DNA of 36,511 bases from Gammaproteobacteria bacterium (GTDB lineage Bacteria; Pseudomonadota; Gammaproteobacteria; Xanthomonadales; Xanthomonadaceae), in NCBI GenBank assembly GCA_030431185.1, contig JAUIJO010000002.1, positions 1-36,511 of the forward strand, read 5' to 3'. Both the position numbers and the translations under genes were made by a program. This document shows positions 8,498-17,127 of this stretch, piece after piece (position 1 is the stretch's first letter; the number at the start of each line of letters is the position of its first letter). Under the pieces are notes generated by a model. The model searched no databases and had not been told where the DNA came from. It saw only the letters and a program-made list of their open reading frames with translations.

Positions 8498-11400
8498 ATG
8501 CCTCATGTTCCGGTCCGGGCGCCGAGGGTGCGCCGCGTCGCCATTCCATGCCTGCTGCTGGGCCTCGTGGCCACGCTGGCCACGGTCGCGTGGGCCCAGG
8601 AGGTGCCCGCCGACGCAACGACCTCCAGTACGGCGCCCCCCGATTCCGGTTTCCTGCTGCTGGGAGAACAGCGGCCATTCCAGGCCGAGGTGATCACGGA
8701 GCTGGTCCAGGATCGCGTGGGATTCCTATGGATCGGCACGCGCGAGGGCTTGTTCCAGTACGACGGCCAGCGGTTCCGCAAGTTCCAGCACGATGCGGGC
8801 GACGCCGACTCGATCTCCAGCAACGCCATCCGCGGCATGCTCGAGGACACGCGCGGCCGGCTCTGGGTGAACACGATATCCGGTGGCCTCAACCTGCTCG
8901 ACCGCGCCGGGTGGACCTTCCGCCATTTCAACCATGGTACCCAGCCCGGTGGCCTCAGCCACGACGGCGTGTTCGCATTGGCCGAAGCCGAGGACGGCAG
9001 GCTGTGGGTGGGCACCCAGTCCGGCCTCGACCTGTTGGATCCCGCCACGGGTCTCGCGGAACCCAGGGCGCTGCGCGGCAAGGGGGGCGAGTTCATCATG
9101 ACCCTGTTGCGCGACGCCGAGGGCCGCTTGTGGGTGGGCACGCTCGGCCAGGGACTGTTCCGCGCGACGGACGCGGGCGGATTCGAGGCGGTGCCCCTGG
9201 GCGAAGCAGGGGACACCGGACCCGCCGACATTTTCGGGCTGATGCAGGATGCCGGCGGCGTACTGTGGGTCGGTGCGCGCGACGGCCTCTACCGTGTGGC
9301 GCCCGGCCAGGCGCGCATGGCCGCCGCCGACCTGCTCCCCGTCGAGACTGGCGAGGAACTCGTCAATGTCACCACGCTCGTGCCGGACACGGACGGTGCG
9401 ATCTGGATCGGGACTTTCGGTACCGGGCTTTACCGGCTCGACCCGGCCACGTCCCGGATCGAAGCGGTAGGGCTGGGCCGAGCGGGCGCGGGTGCCCAGC
9501 ACGTGGACCAGGGGGCGATGCTGGTCGACCGCCAGGGCGGGCTGCTGGTCGGTACGTTCGGCGCTGGCCTGTTGCGGCGCCCGGCGCCCGTGCTGGACAT
9601 CCAGTCCTACCGGGCGGGCCAGGGCGAGGCCATGGGCCTCCGCGGTGAAGACGTCTACGCCGTGCTGGCCGATGGCGGGGACATGCGGTTCGGCAGCTTC
9701 GGCGGTGGCGTGCAGCGGTTGGTAGGCGCGACGGGAGAGGTGCAGTGGCTGGACGCCCCGGAAGCGGACGGCCGCCGCCTGGATGGCGTCGTCGCGCTGG
9801 CGCGTTCGCGCGACGGCAGCCTCTGGGTGGGGACCTCCGCGGGCCTGTACCGGCGACGGCCGGACGGTGGAACCACCACCTTCACCGCGCCTCCGGGCTC
9901 GCCGGGCGAGGCCAACCCCGGCTACGTCTACGCAATGCTCGAGGACCACGCCGGGCGCCTCTGGGTGGGCAGCGGCGGTTCCGGCCTCTACCGCTTCCGG
10001 CCCGGCGAGGAGGACTTCCTGATCTACCGGCCGGAGCCGGGGAACCCGCGCGCCCTGTCCGACGACTTCGTTTCGGCACTGATGGAGGACCGCCGCGGCC
10101 GCCTCTGGGTGGGGACGCGTTCGGGTGGGCTGAACCTGTGCACGGTGGCCGGCGACGCGCTGGACTGTGAACAACTGCCGCCGGGGCAGGGCGCCGGTGC
10201 GCCCAGCCACCACCATGTCGCCGACCTGCTGGAAGCACCGGACGGCGCGGTGTGGATCGGCACCGGGGGCGGCGGGCTCAACCGCGTCGACCTCGACGCG
10301 GACGGTCGCATCATCGGCGCCCGGATCTGGACGCGTGCCGACGGCCTGGTCGACGACAACGTGATGGCCCTGGCCCACGCGCCCGATGGCGCCCTCTGGA
10401 TCACCACGCGCGTGGGCTTGTCGCGGCTCGACCCGGACGGCCATTTCGACAACTACACCGTCGCCGATGGCCTGCCCACCTCGGTTTTCAATGCCAAGGC
10501 GGCCGATTGGCTGGACGGACGCCTCTACCTGGGCGGCACCCGCGGCGTGGTGTCCATCGACCCCGCGCGCTGGCAACGCCCCGGCCCGCCGCCGCCCACG
10601 GTGTTCACCTCGATCGAGGGCCTGGAGCGCGCGACGCCGTTGCCGGCACCTCCCTGGCAACTCGAATCGCTTCGGGTGGCATGGCGTCAGCCGTTTTCGC
10701 TGGGCTTCTCGGTGCTGTCCTTCGACGGGGGAGAGGCCGAGTACGAGTACCGCCTCGACGATGGCGAACCGTGGACGCCACTGGGCAACCGCAACCAGTT
10801 GACGCTGCATTCGCTTTCGCCGGGTCGTTACCGGGTCGGCATCCGCGGCAGGCACGCCGGTACCGGATGGACCGCCTCGGCGCCCTTGTCGATCGACATC
10901 GTCCCGCCCTGGTGGCGCAATGCCTGGCTGCAGGCAGCGGCGATCGTGCTTGCCTTCGCCCTGGTGTTGCTGGGGGCCGTCTGGCGGGTACGCGCCCTGC
11001 AGGCCCGCAATGCCGAGCTGCAGGCGCTGGAGCGGCAGAAGGACGTGGCCCTGCAAGCGTCGCGCGACAGCCAGGAACGCCTCGAGTCGGCGTTCGCGCG
11101 CCTGCGCCGACTGACCATGCAGCTGGAGGCGGCGAAGGAAGAGGAGCGCAAGCATATCGCGCGCGAGCTTCATGACGAGTTCGGCCAGGCGCTCACCGCC
11201 GCCAAGATCAACCTCCGCCTCGCGCTTGCGAATTCCGGCGCGGAGGCTGCCGAAGCGCGCATCGACGATACGCTGCACGTCATCGAGCGGCTGATCGTGC
11301 AGGTGCGCGCGCTGTCGCTGGACCTGCGTCCGCCCCTGCTGGACGAGCTGGGCCTGGTCCCGGCGTTGGAAGGCTACCTGGACGCGGTGGCGCAGCGCAG

Positions 11401-11779
11401 CGGAATGGCCATCGAACGCGACATCGACGTCGGCCTGCCGGCCATCGACGCCGAACGGGCCATCGCGGTGTTCCGGGTGGTCCAGGAAGCCCTGACCAAC
11501 GCGCTCCGCCACGCGGAAGCGGCCCACGTCCGGGTCGTGTTGAAGCACGAAGACGGTGCCATCGGCATCGAAGTGGCCGACGACGGGCGCGGGTTCGACG
11601 CCGAGGGGGCGATGGAAGGACGCGCGCACGGCTTCGGCCTGTTCGGCATGGGGGAGCGCATCAAGGATCTCGGCGGGCGCTTCGCACTCAATTCCCGCCC
11701 GGGGCGCGGTACCGTGATCCTTGCGACCGTCCCGCTGGCGAACGCGGCCCGACCCGGCCTGGAGGCAACAAGGACATGA
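8498..11779 (+). CDS. sensor histidine kinase with periplasmic two-component-regulator propeller repeats, Y_Y_Y domain and HisKA_3/HATPase core
   Basis: Signal peptide; many repeats of the form GxLWVGTxxGLxR; Y_Y_Y-like YEYRLDDGEPWTPLGNRNQLTLHSLSPGRYRVGIRGRH; TM segment AWLQAAAIVLAFALVLLGAVW; HisKA_3 box EEERKHIARELHDEFGQALTAAKINLRLAL; ATPase DDGRGFD...HGFGLFGMGERIKDLGG. Confidence 0.93.
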   Translation: MPHVPVRAPRVRRVAIPCLLLGLVATLATVAWAQEVPADATTSSTAPPDSGFLLLGEQRPFQAEVITELVQDRVGFLWIGTREGLFQYDGQRFRKFQHDAGDADSISSNAIRGMLEDTRGRLWVNTISGGLNLLDRAGWTFRHFNHGTQPGGLSHDGVFALAEAEDGRLWVGTQSGLDLLDPATGLAEPRALRGKGGEFIMTLLRDAEGRLWVGTLGQGLFRATDAGGFEAVPLGEAGDTGPADIFGLMQDAGGVLWVGARDGLYRVAPGQARMAAADLLPVETGEELVNVTTLVPDTDGAIWIGTFGTGLYRLDPATSRIEAVGLGRAGAGAQHVDQGAMLVDRQGGLLVGTFGAGLLRRPAPVLDIQSYRAGQGEAMGLRGEDVYAVLADGGDMRFGSFGGGVQRLVGATGEVQWLDAPEADGRRLDGVVALARSRDGSLWVGTSAGLYRRRPDGGTTTFTAPPGSPGEANPGYVYAMLEDHAGRLWVGSGGSGLYRFRPGEEDFLIYRPEPGNPRALSDDFVSALMEDRRGRLWVGTRSGGLNLCTVAGDALDCEQLPPGQGAGAPSHHHVADLLEAPDGAVWIGTGGGGLNRVDLDADGRIIGARIWTRADGLVDDNVMALAHAPDGALWITTRVGLSRLDPDGHFDNYTVADGLPTSVFNAKAADWLDGRLYLGGTRGVVSIDPARWQRPGPPPPTVFTSIEGLERATPLPAPPWQLESLRVAWRQPFSLGFSVLSFDGGEAEYEYRLDDGEPWTPLGNRNQLTLHSLSPGRYRVGIRGRHAGTGWTASAPLSIDIVPPWWRNAWLQAAAIVLAFALVLLGAVWRVRALQARNAELQALERQKDVALQASRDSQERLESAFARLRRLTMQLEAAKEEERKHIARELHDEFGQALTAAKINLRLALANSGAEAAEARIDDTLHVIERLIVQVRALSLDLRPPLLDELGLVPALEGYLDAVAQRSGMAIERDIDVGLPAIDAERAIAVFRVVQEALTNALRHAEAAHVRVVLKHEDGAIGIEVADDGRGFDAEGAMEGRAHGFGLFGMGERIKDLGGRFALNSRPGRGTVILATVPLANAARPGLEATRT

Positions 11780-12435
11780 ACATGCGCATCGTGATGGCCG
11801 ACGACCACCAGCTGGTGCGGGCGGGCCTCAGGTCCCTGCTCGAATCCTTCGGCGATGTCAGCGTCCTGGCCGAGTGCGGGGACGGCCACGAAGCCCTTGC
11901 GTTGACCGATCGCCACCAGCCCGACGTACTGCTGCTCGACATCAGCTTGCCGGGCCTCAACGGCCTGGAGGTCGCCGCGCGCGTGCCCAAGGCCAGTCCC
12001 CATACACGCGTGCTGGTGCTGTCCATGCACGCGGGCGCCGAGTACGTGGCCCAGGCCCTGCGCGCGGGCGTGGCCGGTTACCTGATCAAGGATTCGGCGG
12101 TCGACGAGTTGCGCGTCGCGCTCGATTCGATCCGGGCCGGCCGCCCCTACCTGAGCCCGGCGATCTCGCAGACCGTCCTGCATGGCTTCCTGCGCACGGG
12201 CGAAGGTCCTCCCGAGGCCGCGCAACTCGAGGTGCTGACGCCGCGCCAGCGCGAGATCCTGCAACTGGTGGCCGAAGGCCATGGCACGCGCGACATCGCC
12301 ACCCGGCTGGGGCTGAGCGTCAAGACGGTGGAAAGTCACCGGAGCCAGATCATGGACCGGCTGGACATCCATGACGTGCCGGGCCTCGTGCGCTTCGCGA
12401 TCCGCGTCGGCCTGGTCTCCGTCGATTCGCGTTGA
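11776..12435 (+). CDS. NarL/LuxR-family response regulator
   Basis: MRIVMADDHQLVRAGL...PDVLLLDISLPGLNGLEV...VLSMHAG...GYLIKDSA; C-terminal LTPRQREILQLVAEGHGTRDIATRLGLSVKTVESHRSQIMDRLDIHD; ATGA overlap with the kinase gene. Confidence 0.95.
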   Translation: MNMRIVMADDHQLVRAGLRSLLESFGDVSVLAECGDGHEALALTDRHQPDVLLLDISLPGLNGLEVAARVPKASPHTRVLVLSMHAGAEYVAQALRAGVAGYLIKDSAVDELRVALDSIRAGRPYLSPAISQTVLHGFLRTGEGPPEAAQLEVLTPRQREILQLVAEGHGTRDIATRLGLSVKTVESHRSQIMDRLDIHDVPGLVRFAIRVGLVSVDSR

Positions 12436-12491: not shown

Positions 12492-12529
12492 TAGGGGAAT
12501 GCCCTAGCCGGGCCTCGGGCGTCTCCCGA
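12492..12529 (+). promoter_or_regulatory. candidate operator pair A: TAGGGGAATGCCCTA (12492-12506) and TCGGGCGTCTCCCGA (12515-12529)
   Basis: Two 15-bp 7-1-7 inverted repeats, each with one mismatch, centres 23 bp apart, upstream of the 12618 gene. The same arrangement occurs at 15875-15912. Confidence 0.6.
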
Positions 12530-12553: not shown

Positions 12554-12559
12554 TAGGGT
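12554..12559 (+). promoter_or_regulatory. candidate -10 hexamer (TAGGGT) of the secreted-protein operon
   Basis: Starts 32 bp after the centre of the proximal palindrome, the same offset as TATCGT at 15937-15942. Confidence 0.35.
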
Positions 12560-12617
12560 GGAACCGTCGTTACAGGGGGCGGCATCCACCACCATCCATC
12601 TCCGGGGGAGAACCCAA

Positions 12618-13253
12618 ATGAGATCCTTGTTCGTCCTGCGTCGAGCGGCCGTCATGGCCATGTTCGCGCTGTCCCTTGGCCTGTTGGCCACCACCGCGCA
12701 GGCCACCAAGCTGCGCAAGCAAAACCTCACCGAACTCATCGCTGGCTCGGAGAGCATCGTGTCCGGGACGGTCAAGTCCGTCAGCGATGGCATCGACGCG
12801 AAAGGCGTGCCCTACACCGAGGTCACCCTCTCGATCGGGCGCTCGCCCAAGGGCGCGATCGAGGCCGGAAAGGAGTACACGTTCCGCCAGTTCGGGCTGC
12901 TCGAACCGCGCACCTTTCCCAATGGCCACCAGTTGCTGGCGCGCGCCCCGGAGGGCTTCCCCACCTGGCACGAAGGCGAGTACGTGGTCGCCTTCCTCAA
13001 CCGTCCCGCGTCGCGCACGGGCCTGCAGACCACGGTCGGCCTCGCCCAGGGCAAGCTCGTCCAGGTCAATGACCGCCTCGCGAACGACTTCGGCAACGAC
13101 GGCCTGTTCGACGGCGTGCAGGTCAGCGCCGGCCTCCTGTCGGCCGACGAGAACGCGCTGATCAATGGCAGCCCCGTGGATACCGCGGTGTTCCTCGGCC
13201 TGATCGACCGTATCGTCGAGCAGCAGTGGATCGAAAAGGGGGAGATGAAGTGA
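12618..13253 (+). CDS. secreted protein of unknown function, partner of the downstream metalloprotease
   Basis: Signal peptide AAVMAMFALSLGLLATTAQA; LTELIAGSESIVSGTVKSVSDGIDAKGVPYTEVTLSIGRSPKG..., WHEGEYVVAFL; gggggag RBS; stop codon overlaps the next start (TGATG). Confidence 0.82.
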   Translation: MRSLFVLRRAAVMAMFALSLGLLATTAQATKLRKQNLTELIAGSESIVSGTVKSVSDGIDAKGVPYTEVTLSIGRSPKGAIEAGKEYTFRQFGLLEPRTFPNGHQLLARAPEGFPTWHEGEYVVAFLNRPASRTGLQTTVGLAQGKLVQVNDRLANDFGNDGLFDGVQVSAGLLSADENALINGSPVDTAVFLGLIDRIVEQQWIEKGEMK

Positions 13254-15712
13254 TGACGACCGCACGCACGCGCAGCACGCGCCTCTTCCTCACCCTGGGC
13301 CTCATCCTTTCCGCCGGCGCGACGCAGGCCGCTGGACCGCTCTATCTGTCCTCCGATTCCGGCGAGCTGAAGCCGCTGGCCTGGGACATGAGCGACGGCC
13401 CGATCCCGGTATACACCGACGGCGGTGAGGCCTTCACCTTCGATTTCGACGGCGTCACGCCCTTTATCACCATCGAGCGCGCGAACGAGATCACCGCCTT
13501 CGCGTTCGAGCAGTGGAGCCAGGTGCCGACCTCGACGTTCGAGGCCGCGATCGCCGGCACCATCGAGTCGCAGATCGGCATCGCCGACATCACCGGCGCC
13601 AACGCCGACGCGGTCTACAGCGTCGAGAACGGCCGCGGCTTCTGGGTGCTCTACGACACCGACGGGAGCATCCTGCAGGACTACTTCGGCGTCAGCCGCG
13701 ACTCGGTCCTCGGCATCGCCTTCCCCGAGTGGTCGGACGGCAATGGCCACATCACCGAGGCGACCGCGGTCATGAACGGCTGGGGCGTGCACGTCGACGA
13801 CCCGCAGGGCAACGCCTTCGCAGGTGTGTTCAGCCACGAGTTCGGGCACGCGATCAACCTGTCCCACTCGCAGGTCAACGGCCCGATGGCCTACCAGAGC
13901 TACACGTACGCGCCCAAGTATCCAGGCGTGAAGGGCTGCGTCGCTCCATACCACCGCTACGACTACCCGGCGTCGATCGCGGAAGCCAATCCGATCGACG
14001 TGACCAGTCTGGAGACGATGTTCCCCTTCATCGATTCCCGCGCCGGCGGCGGCGTGGCGCAGTCGACCGTCGACATGCCCGACGACATCGCCGGCATCTC
14101 CAACCTGTATCCCAGCGCGACCTATGCCAGCACCACCGGCTCGATCTCGGGCGTCCTCCGGCTCAAGGATGGCATGACCGAGTACAGCGGCATCAACGTG
14201 ATCGCCCGCAACGTCGACGATCCGCTCTTCGACGCGGTGTCCGCGATGACCGGCGACCAGACCCAGGGCGAACTGGGGCCCGATGGTCGCTTCACGATCC
14301 ACAACCTGACGCCGGGCCAGCGTTACGTCGTGTACATCGAGCCGATCAGCTCGGGCGGCTATCCGACCACGCCCCAGGCGCTGGTCTCGGAGGGCGAGTA
14401 CTGGAATGTGTCCGAGGGCAGCGACCCGGCGACGGACGCGGGCTGCGACGCCACCCCGATTCTGGCCGAGGCCGGTGTCACCACGAATGCCGACATCACC
14501 TTCAACGGGTACGCCAAGGGCGTGCAGTTCACGCCGATCGTCCAGGCGCACCTGCTCGAGGTCTCCAAGAGCGGCAAGCGCGCGTCGGGCATGGTCGGTG
14601 ACGTCGGTTTCGTCTGGGACCGCACCAAGGGCTTCCAGTTGCTGCCCGAGGGCGTGGGGGCCAGCAACGGCGCGCTCGACCGCAATGGTGGGCAGATGCT
14701 CGGGAGCGCGGACGTCAATGGCAACGGCATCAACGAGCCGGTGATCGTGTCGCTGGCGTCGGGCCGTTTGCAGCCCTTGGGCGACCTTAACGGCAACACC
14801 TGCGGTGGTAGCAATTCGGGTGGCGTCAACGCCGCGACGGGCTGGTCGCTGGACGATGCGGCCCGCACCATGGTCGGTACCGGTTATGTCGACCGGAATG
14901 GCAACGGCAGCTGCAACCAGTCCTACCAGAACGAGATCGTCCCGGTGGTCTGGGATGCCAAGGGCGGCATGCGCGAGCTGCATACCTGGTTCGATTCCCT
15001 GCCGCAGTGGACGCGCGCGACCGGCATCTCCGGCAACGGCCGCGTCGTCGTCGGCAGCGCCGGCGCGCAGGACGCACTCGCCTGGATCGACGAGGGGCAG
15101 ATGATCAACCTCGGCGACATCACCGGGGCCCGCGACCTCTATGCGGTGAACTACGACGGTACCCGCGTGCCGATGTCCACTGAGCAGGGCGTGCTGCTCT
15201 GGAACGCCATGAAGGGCACGGGTGCGGAGGCCTTCACCAACATCGGCGGCCTGCGCTATTGCCGCGATGTGCCCATGGTCCAGTTGGGTCGCGACCTCTG
15301 TGCACTGTATGGCGAGGACGTCGTCAACGAGGCGCTGGGCGCGCCCATCCTGTCGATCTCCAGTACCACAGACAAGGGCGACATCGTCCTGGGTCGCGCC
15401 GGCTCGCTGTTCACGGGCTTCGTCGGCGCGATCTGGATCGAGCACGTGGGTTGGATGACCATGGTCGACTTCCTGCACAAGCAGGGCGTCGTCGAGGCCA
15501 CCGACATCCCGTATGACAACCCGATCGGCATCAGCGCATCGGGCAGCGAGATCGTGGGTGGCCTGGCCGGTGCGACGATGTCCTGGCTGATCGAGGCCGA
15601 CCAGGTCTATGTCTGCCAGGACGGCCAGTCGGTCCTGACCGGTTTCCCCAACGGACTTCAGGCCAAGGTCCAGGCGGGTGCAAGGTTCGGTCGCTGCGAG
15701 TTCCTCGACTGA
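13253..15712 (+). CDS. secreted metzincin-like zinc metalloprotease with beta-sandwich and HAF-like repeat C-terminus
   Basis: Signal peptide; HEFGHAINLSH (HExxHxxxxxH); possible Met-turn DVTSLETMFPFIDS; carboxypeptidase-regulatory-like segment SISGVLRLKDGMTEYSGINVIARN...GRFTIHNLTPGQRYVVYIEP; repeated GxSxxGxxVVGSAGAQDALAWxxG type segments. Confidence 0.83.
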   Translation: MTTARTRSTRLFLTLGLILSAGATQAAGPLYLSSDSGELKPLAWDMSDGPIPVYTDGGEAFTFDFDGVTPFITIERANEITAFAFEQWSQVPTSTFEAAIAGTIESQIGIADITGANADAVYSVENGRGFWVLYDTDGSILQDYFGVSRDSVLGIAFPEWSDGNGHITEATAVMNGWGVHVDDPQGNAFAGVFSHEFGHAINLSHSQVNGPMAYQSYTYAPKYPGVKGCVAPYHRYDYPASIAEANPIDVTSLETMFPFIDSRAGGGVAQSTVDMPDDIAGISNLYPSATYASTTGSISGVLRLKDGMTEYSGINVIARNVDDPLFDAVSAMTGDQTQGELGPDGRFTIHNLTPGQRYVVYIEPISSGGYPTTPQALVSEGEYWNVSEGSDPATDAGCDATPILAEAGVTTNADITFNGYAKGVQFTPIVQAHLLEVSKSGKRASGMVGDVGFVWDRTKGFQLLPEGVGASNGALDRNGGQMLGSADVNGNGINEPVIVSLASGRLQPLGDLNGNTCGGSNSGGVNAATGWSLDDAARTMVGTGYVDRNGNGSCNQSYQNEIVPVVWDAKGGMRELHTWFDSLPQWTRATGISGNGRVVVGSAGAQDALAWIDEGQMINLGDITGARDLYAVNYDGTRVPMSTEQGVLLWNAMKGTGAEAFTNIGGLRYCRDVPMVQLGRDLCALYGEDVVNEALGAPILSISSTTDKGDIVLGRAGSLFTGFVGAIWIEHVGWMTMVDFLHKQGVVEATDIPYDNPIGISASGSEIVGGLAGATMSWLIEADQVYVCQDGQSVLTGFPNGLQAKVQAGARFGRCEFLD

Positions 15713-15874
15713 ACCCACTGCCAGTGCGCGTGACGTTGGAGGGGCGGGTCTTCGGACCTGCCCCTCTGCCCATTCCGGATGGATGCTGTCCGCCCGGGAC
15801 CGACGCGGGCATTGGGGCAGCGGCGTGCCAGCCAGGCCTTGGGGGTGGCGGTCGACCCTGAACCCCCGGTGTCA

Positions 15875-15912
15875 TAGGGGAATCCCCTAGAGGCGTATCG
15901 GGGAATCCCTGA
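15875..15912 (+). promoter_or_regulatory. candidate operator pair B: TAGGGGAATCCCCTA (15875-15889) and TCGGGGAATCCCTGA (15898-15912)
   Basis: First is a perfect 7-1-7 palindrome, second has one mismatch; centres 23 bp apart, exactly as in pair A. Confidence 0.65.
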
Positions 15913-15936: not shown

Positions 15937-15942
15937 TATCGT
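15937..15942 (+). promoter_or_regulatory. candidate -10 hexamer (TATCGT) of the putative sRNA promoter
   Basis: Begins 32 bp after the centre of the proximal palindrome, as in copy A. Confidence 0.35.
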
Positions 15943-15948
15943 GCAACA

Positions 15949-16076
15949 CACAGCGCGCGGAACGGTTCGGCGCGGCGGGTGACCCGAAGAACCCGCCGCC
16001 CCTGCATGGCACCTCTTTGGTGGAACGCGGTTTCCGGCGCGCTCGAAAGGCGGGGGTTTCCCCGCCTTTCTTGTGT
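15949..16076 (+). ncRNA. putative structured small RNA of about 128 nt ending at an intrinsic terminator
   Basis: Lies between candidate promoter B and the terminator. Long-range stem AGCGCGCGGAA (15952-15962)/TTCCGGCGCGCT (16032-16043, one bulged G); 9-bp hairpin GCGGCGGGT(15972-15980)/ACCCGCCGC(15991-15999); hairpin CACC-TCTTT-GGTG (16010-16022); no credible ORF inside. Confidence 0.55.
16045..16076 (+). terminator. intrinsic terminator
   Basis: Perfect 11-bp stem GAAAGGCGGGG (16045-16055)/CCCCGCCTTTC (16060-16070), 4-nt loop GTTT, followed by TTGTGT. Confidence 0.8.
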
Positions 16077-16108: not shown

Positions 16109-16612
16109 TCAGCCGTCGTAGGCCACGTCCACGATCGTGAAGCGCGTCGGCCCGGCAGGCAGCTCGGCCACGAATCCGTCGTCGACACGCTTCTTCAGCA
16201 TGGCCCGCGCAAGCGGCGAATCGATGCTGATCCAGCCCCTTGGCGCATCGGTCTCGTCGGGCCCCACGATGCGGTAGGCCTTGCACTCGCCGGTATCCAC
16301 GCGCTCGACCTCCACCCGTGCGCCGAAGAACACCGCCCCTGGATCGGACGGCAGGCCGTCGACGACCTTCAGCGCGGGCACGCGCTTGCTGAGGTATCGC
16401 ACGCGCCGGTCGATCTCGCCGAGCTGTTTCTTGCGATAGGTGTATTCGGCATTCTCGGACCGGTCGCCTTCCGCGGCGGCGGCGGCCAGCGCCTGCACCA
16501 CTTCCGGGCGTTTGACGCGCCACAATTCGTCGAGCTCGCGCTTCAGGCGATCATGGCCGCCGCGGGTGATCAGCGGCGTGCTCTTCTCGGGTGGCGGACG
16601 CCAGCGGCCCAT
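16109..16612 (-). CDS. greB: transcription elongation factor GreB
   Basis: [65 protein letters not shown]... and [38 protein letters not shown]. Confidence 0.95.
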
Positions 16613-16623
16613 GGTGCGAGGCC

Positions 16624-17127
16624 TCAGTCCAGGTCGGCGGTGCGGACCAGGCCCTGGCCGGTTTCGCTCGCGACCGGCTGGCCCTCGCTGTCGAGCAGGG
16701 CGAGCGACTGCGGTGGCTGCCACTGGAACAGGCGGTCCTGGGCATCCTTGGCATTCGGGTCGAGCCGCAGGAGGCTGCCTTCCACGCTCCAGCTGCCGTC
16801 CAGCTCGAAGCGCGTGCCGGCTTCGTCCGCGTAATGTTCGGCGAGGTCGAAGCTTCCGTCGGGGCGGAGTTCAAGCACCGTGTCGATGCCGGGGCAGCTG
16901 GCGCAGGGCAGGACGCCCTCGAAGCGACCGGCCAGGGCCTTGGTGTCGACATCGGAGGCGGGGGTTGCGTCCGCGGGCGTCACCTCGTGCAGGACCGCGG
17001 TCGCCGGGCTGGCCTCATCGGCGGGGGACGGGGATTCGGCGCCTGTAGTGTCCGCGCCTTGCCGGCAGGCGGACAGGGCCAGGCAGAGCACGGCGAGGGC
17101 GGGCAGGGTACGGTGCGAGAGGGACAT
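16624..17127 (-). CDS. NlpE-like (copper resistance/envelope stress) lipoprotein
   Basis: Lipobox [63 protein letters not shown] matches the NlpE N-terminal domain. Confidence 0.85.

Follow-up and report, generated by a model that had tools for sequence, protein, structure and literature searches.

The segment at positions 15949-16076 on the forward strand of the window, the whole 36,511-nucleotide stretch of DNA that was analysed, is very probably a real sRNA gene. Judged from its sequence, fold and neighbourhood, it appears to be an independent, highly structured, non-coding sRNA, predicted to be transcribed from a start placed by the -10 hexamer to an end placed by the terminator. We consider it likely that one explanation accounts for the RNA as a whole, namely that it is a trans-acting, base-pairing sRNA that would be activated by a NarL-family regulator and co-regulated with a metalloprotease. 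The RNA itself is new, and the type of device, a two-component-activated sRNA, is well known. The analysis provides a concrete regulon (operator, spacing and -10) for an uncharacterised pair of beta-propeller kinase and NarL-type response regulator in the Lysobacter-Xanthomonas family, and it predicts that metalloprotease production is coupled to an sRNA. As a young, clade-limited RNA under an older class of promoter, it is also a useful case for the study of sRNA origins.

Structure and conservation of the RNA

The first-pass annotation had described a long stem that encloses two hairpins, and the minimum free energy (MFE) fold reproduces this nested structure. The basal stem runs from 15952 to about 16043 and encloses a 9-bp hairpin (15972-15999; arms 15972-15980 and 15991-15999) and a CACC-UCUUU-GGUG hairpin (16010-16022). 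The 10-nt loop of the 9-bp hairpin, GACCCGAAGA, is fully accessible and is a candidate seed, as is the accessible linker CTGCATGGC (16002-16010). The whole segment folds at -72.4 kcal/mol (z = -3.78), and none of 200 dinucleotide shuffles is equally stable. Without the terminator (15949-16044) the score is more modest (z = -2.50, with 3 of 200 shuffles as stable), so that part of the stability comes from the terminator on a GC-rich background. The three other orthologues described below fold with z scores of -4.20, -4.31 and -3.46. When each of the four sequences is folded on its own, all form the basal stem, the hairpin with the accessible loop and the terminator, and the inner part differs in one genome, G094.

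The intrinsic terminator proposed for the 3' end stood in part. The perfect 11-bp hairpin (16045-16070) is present and is kept in all four orthologues, but its tail, TTGTGT, is only marginally T-rich, and 0.7 terminator-like sites would be expected by chance in the 1.2-kb region. No Hfq-type U-tail is obvious at the 3' end of the RNA. An Rfam search of the segment returned no family at or above the gathering threshold.

Within the genus, the genome of the window (G000) was compared with six others by DNA and covariance searches, and the RNA is conserved in four of the seven (G000, G020, G120 and G094) at 80-82% identity; these four are the Lysobacter aestuarii/penaei group. Across 397 genomes sampled from the family, a covariance search yielded these four orthologues alone as convincing matches (138-160 bits). 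Other matches scored at most 36 bits, and those inspected looked terminator-driven. Among 80 named greB loci, the RNA was found only in L. aestuarii and L. penaei.

Compensatory changes in the proposed stems, which the first-pass annotation had put forward as a check, are present in the orthologues. Three pairs of the long stem are altered on both sides (C-G to U-A once, A-U to G-C twice), as is one further pair in the terminator, for a total of four pairs. Paired cells make up 96.8% in the alignment versus 43-59% in controls in which the partner was slid out of register. Since the alignment has four sequences, of which two are close, the covariation lends modest support to the structure. Eight of the ten columns of the loop GACCCGAAGA are invariant, as are all eight of the linker columns covered by TGCATGGC and UGCAUGGC (TGCATGGC is identical in 4/4 sequences), and the whole body is invariant at 61 of 94.

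A promoter layout shared with a protease cassette

On the forward strand upstream of the RNA, Pfam identifies a sensor histidine kinase (8498-11779) with a beta-propeller (Reg_prop) sensor part, HisKA_3 and HATPase_c, and a NarL/FixJ-family response regulator (RR; 11776-12435) whose closest PDB chain is NarL and which is the putative activator of both promoters discussed here. The protease operon follows, beginning with a gene for a 211-aa protein of unknown family (12618-13253, with an ATG preceded by the Shine-Dalgarno sequence GGGGGAG) and continuing with an M10 (matrixin-type) metalloprotease gene (13226-15712; PF00413). A longer GTG open reading frame from 12558 overlaps the -10 of the protease promoter, and the ATG at 12618 is likely the true start.

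The predicted sRNA promoter contains two palindromes. Operator 1, a perfect 7-1-7 palindrome (TAGGGGA-A-TCCCCTA, 15875-15889), is centred at about -67 and is identical in G020 and G120; operator 2, a near-perfect palindrome (TCGGGGA-A-TCCCTGA, 15898-15912), lies 23 bp downstream and is centred at about -44. The -10 hexamer TATCGT (15937-15942, forward strand) is 32 bp from the centre of operator 2, equal to the distance to TAGGGT (12554-12559) in the protease promoter, where an operator TAGGGGA-A-TGCCCTA (12492-12506) is followed by a second palindrome, TCGGGCGTCTCCCGA (12515-12529). The sRNA promoter has no match to the sigma-70 consensus, as would be anticipated if it depends on an activator. 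Searching the literature for the operator sequence gave no relevant result.

With at most one mismatch allowed, the operator pattern occurs at two sites only in G000 (the sRNA promoter and position 12492 of the protease promoter) and likewise only in these two promoters in G120. When a matrix is built from three distinct protease-promoter sites and no others, it scores the sRNA operators at 23.0 and 19.3, and two held-out RR-adjacent protease promoters at 17.2 and 17.8, against a background maximum of 13.4 in 644 kb of other DNA. The cassette of kinase, RR, operator, p231 and M10 genes recurs in four further genera with RRs that are 74-87% identical, and the operator is always in the gap between RR and p231. 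Counting the window and five other genomes, the operator layout before an M10-protease operon beside a NarL-type RR spans five genera in all, and the aligned promoters share a palindrome, a gap of 22-23 bp, a weaker palindrome-like site and 31-33 bp to TAnnGT. Protease paralogues without an adjacent RR (L173, L174) do not have the operator site. An extra operator-like site before a phosphatase-like gene in G073, another of the genomes, has no second palindrome and was set aside.

The proposal that the RNA is controlled by a regulator is borne out to the extent that its operators and their spacing match those of the promoter next to the NarL-type RR. From these matching sites, we have fair confidence that this RR would be the regulator of the sRNA, and we judge it quite probable that the adjacent two-component system controls the sRNA in the genome of the window.

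Locus history and competing explanations

In all four orthologues the 3' neighbour of the RNA is the convergent greB (16109-16723 on the reverse strand of the window, with a likely real start near 16612, ATGGGCCGCTGG). In the window the 5' neighbour is the protease operon; in G020 and G120 it is a divergent gene that reads as apparently DUF4010/MgtC-like, and in G094 it is rimO. This rearrangement of the 5' neighbours beside a constant greB indicates that the RNA is its own transcription unit. The gene order in G120, assembled from two contigs (C128 and C33), suggests an older arrangement of rimO, kinase, RR, protease operon, DUF4010, sRNA and greB, from which DUF4010 would have been lost in the window, the cassette in G020, and both in G094. 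In G020 (L028, 4428-6027) rimO and the DUF4010-like gene have no kinase-RR-protease cassette between them, and the downstream sRNA operators are intact.

The first-pass annotation had itself raised the concern that the interval might be only the 3'UTR of the protease gene, either processed from the protease mRNA or made by read-through. In the window the RNA does lie on the same strand, about 240 bp 3' of the protease stop codon. However, both the RNA and the promoter in front of it persist where the protease gene is absent or the 5' neighbour points away, that is, beside a divergent gene in G020 and G120 or rimO in G094; an RNA kept beside a divergent gene needs a promoter of its own, and such a promoter, with a -10 and operators at fixed spacing, is predicted there. 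In addition, a terminator-like hairpin (15739-15766) that belongs to the protease gene itself follows directly on its stop codon, and we consider a 3'UTR origin very unlikely. We hold a coding function to be just as improbable. The conserved AUG at 16006 in UGCAUGGC could in principle begin a small protein or mark a dual-function RNA, and 4/4 orthologues do keep this AUG together with the first codons (MAP..), but the AUG has no Shine-Dalgarno sequence in the RNA, the frame is shifted in G094, and the observed changes are explained by pairing. The earlier claim that the segment contains no credible open reading frame also held in every orthologue, as in none of the four does a reading frame close ahead of the terminator.

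A more substantial question is which protein binds the operators. The co-occurrence of operator and RR holds for the cassette-bearing genomes and for G094, which has neither the protease gene nor a close RR orthologue and has also lost the operators, yet keeps the RNA and a TATCAT -10; it does not hold for G020, where RR and protease are absent (the best RR relative is 33% identical) and both operators match those of G120 exactly, even though the 8-bp spacer differs at 4/8 positions. The cassette may have been lost from G020 recently, or another regulator may bind the site. Each genome has many NarL-like paralogues, and the operators of a real sRNA could be bound mainly by one of these or by some other regulator, with the adjacent RR playing a secondary role or none. 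We regard this as unlikely, as the site adjoins the RR gene in every cassette-bearing genome examined and has been lost in G094 along with the cassette. The retention of the RNA in G094 without cassette or operators also implies that the RNA can do without control by the two-component system, and that it has value outside the regulon.

A further explanation is that the protease operon once had a second copy in tandem, of which the segment is what is left: a decayed promoter and a remnant of the 5' end, perhaps still transcribed but functionless. In G073 the p231-M10 pair is duplicated; the second pair lies immediately 3' of the first and is preceded by a separate operator promoter, which is the most sRNA-like of the protease promoters (76% over 38 bp, spacer 7/8). 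A functionless remnant is nevertheless quite improbable, because the structure and the accessible segments persist in four species, compensatory changes included, even after loss of the operators. We tentatively raise, as an unlikely but possible origin of a functional sRNA, that it was born in the genus by capture of an RR-dependent promoter, when a tandem protease-operon copy decayed and its promoter then drove a new structured RNA. If so, this added a post-transcriptional arm to the two-component system. The tandem p231-M10 duplication is located at L170 (6296-12587) in G073.

Proposed function and related systems

Returning to the RR-activated, base-pairing sRNA that we favour, we propose that the beta-propeller histidine kinase would phosphorylate the NarL-type RR, whose dimers would bind both tandem palindromes, spaced by 23 bp, with the promoter-proximal one adjoining the -35 region. 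The bound RR would activate an sRNA promoter that has no good -35, and the same RR would drive the M10 protease operon through its identically laid-out promoter. The RNA, ending at its own terminator, would then pair in trans through the loop GACCCGAAGA and the linker UGCAUGGC, repressing or retuning mRNAs at the time when the protease is made. The cheapest segments to open are 8-mers within the GACCCGAAGA apical loop, at 0.05 kcal/mol, and CUGCAUGG, at 0.84; segments that are both accessible and well conserved are the pattern expected of a base-pairing sRNA, and on this pattern we somewhat favour a trans-acting role. Pairing of the RNA against the 5' regions of the protease operon, kinase, RR, rimO, greB, NlpE-like and M10 genes, scored without a shuffle control, gave nothing notable.

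Enterics and pseudomonads have known examples of NarL/FixJ-family regulators that control sRNAs: RprA is activated by RcsB, and RsmY and RsmZ are activated by GacA. RcsB belongs to the FixJ/NarL family (PMC5829831). The arrangement in the window resembles these systems in having a NarL/FixJ-type regulator and, ahead of a short, structured, intergenic RNA, a palindromic site, but it differs in that the RNA has no sequence relation to them or Rfam match and its partner operon encodes a protease. A role as an Rsm/Csr-type sponge was rejected: GGA motifs are few (2-3 per orthologue), lie mostly in stems, are in some cases not conserved, and are not conserved in loops. A literature search for Lysobacter found no NarL/FixJ-family regulator with an sRNA output.

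The closest promoter architecture is that of BvgA at Bordetella Pfha, where head-to-head dimers bind an inverted heptad (primary site TAAGAAATTTCCTA), with centres 22 bp apart and the nearest site abutting the -35 (PMC7250471). Here, likewise, 7-1-7 palindromes lie 23 bp apart with the nearer one centred at about -44; however, the half-site is TCCCCTA, there is one extra central base, only two sites are recognisable, and the kinase has another architecture. At the level of the RNA, the same bacterial order contains sX13 of Xanthomonas, a strongly structured, Hfq-independent sRNA at the polA locus with exposed C-run loops, its three stem-loops having 4C/5C loops (PMC3771888). The window RNA likewise has an exposed loop, GACCCGAAGA, but identity with sX13 was rejected, as the RNA lies beside greB, has a long enclosing stem with a single CCC loop, and shows no sequence match.

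Two complementarities to the protease operon were also considered and rejected. The CCGAAGA of the loop has a complement in the UUCG loop of the hairpin that follows the protease gene, probably by chance, since UUCG loops are common; a T-tract follows this hairpin in G120 (L147) and is absent in the window. The GCCGCCCCUG/CAGGGGGCGGC match, which involves the protease leader, is missing from G120, and genomes that do not have the RNA also conserve the leader motif. This motif, UCGYUACAGGGGGCGRC (12566-12590; L169, L170, L171), begins 7 nt after the -10, is conserved across genera and may be a regulatory or stability element of the 5' end.
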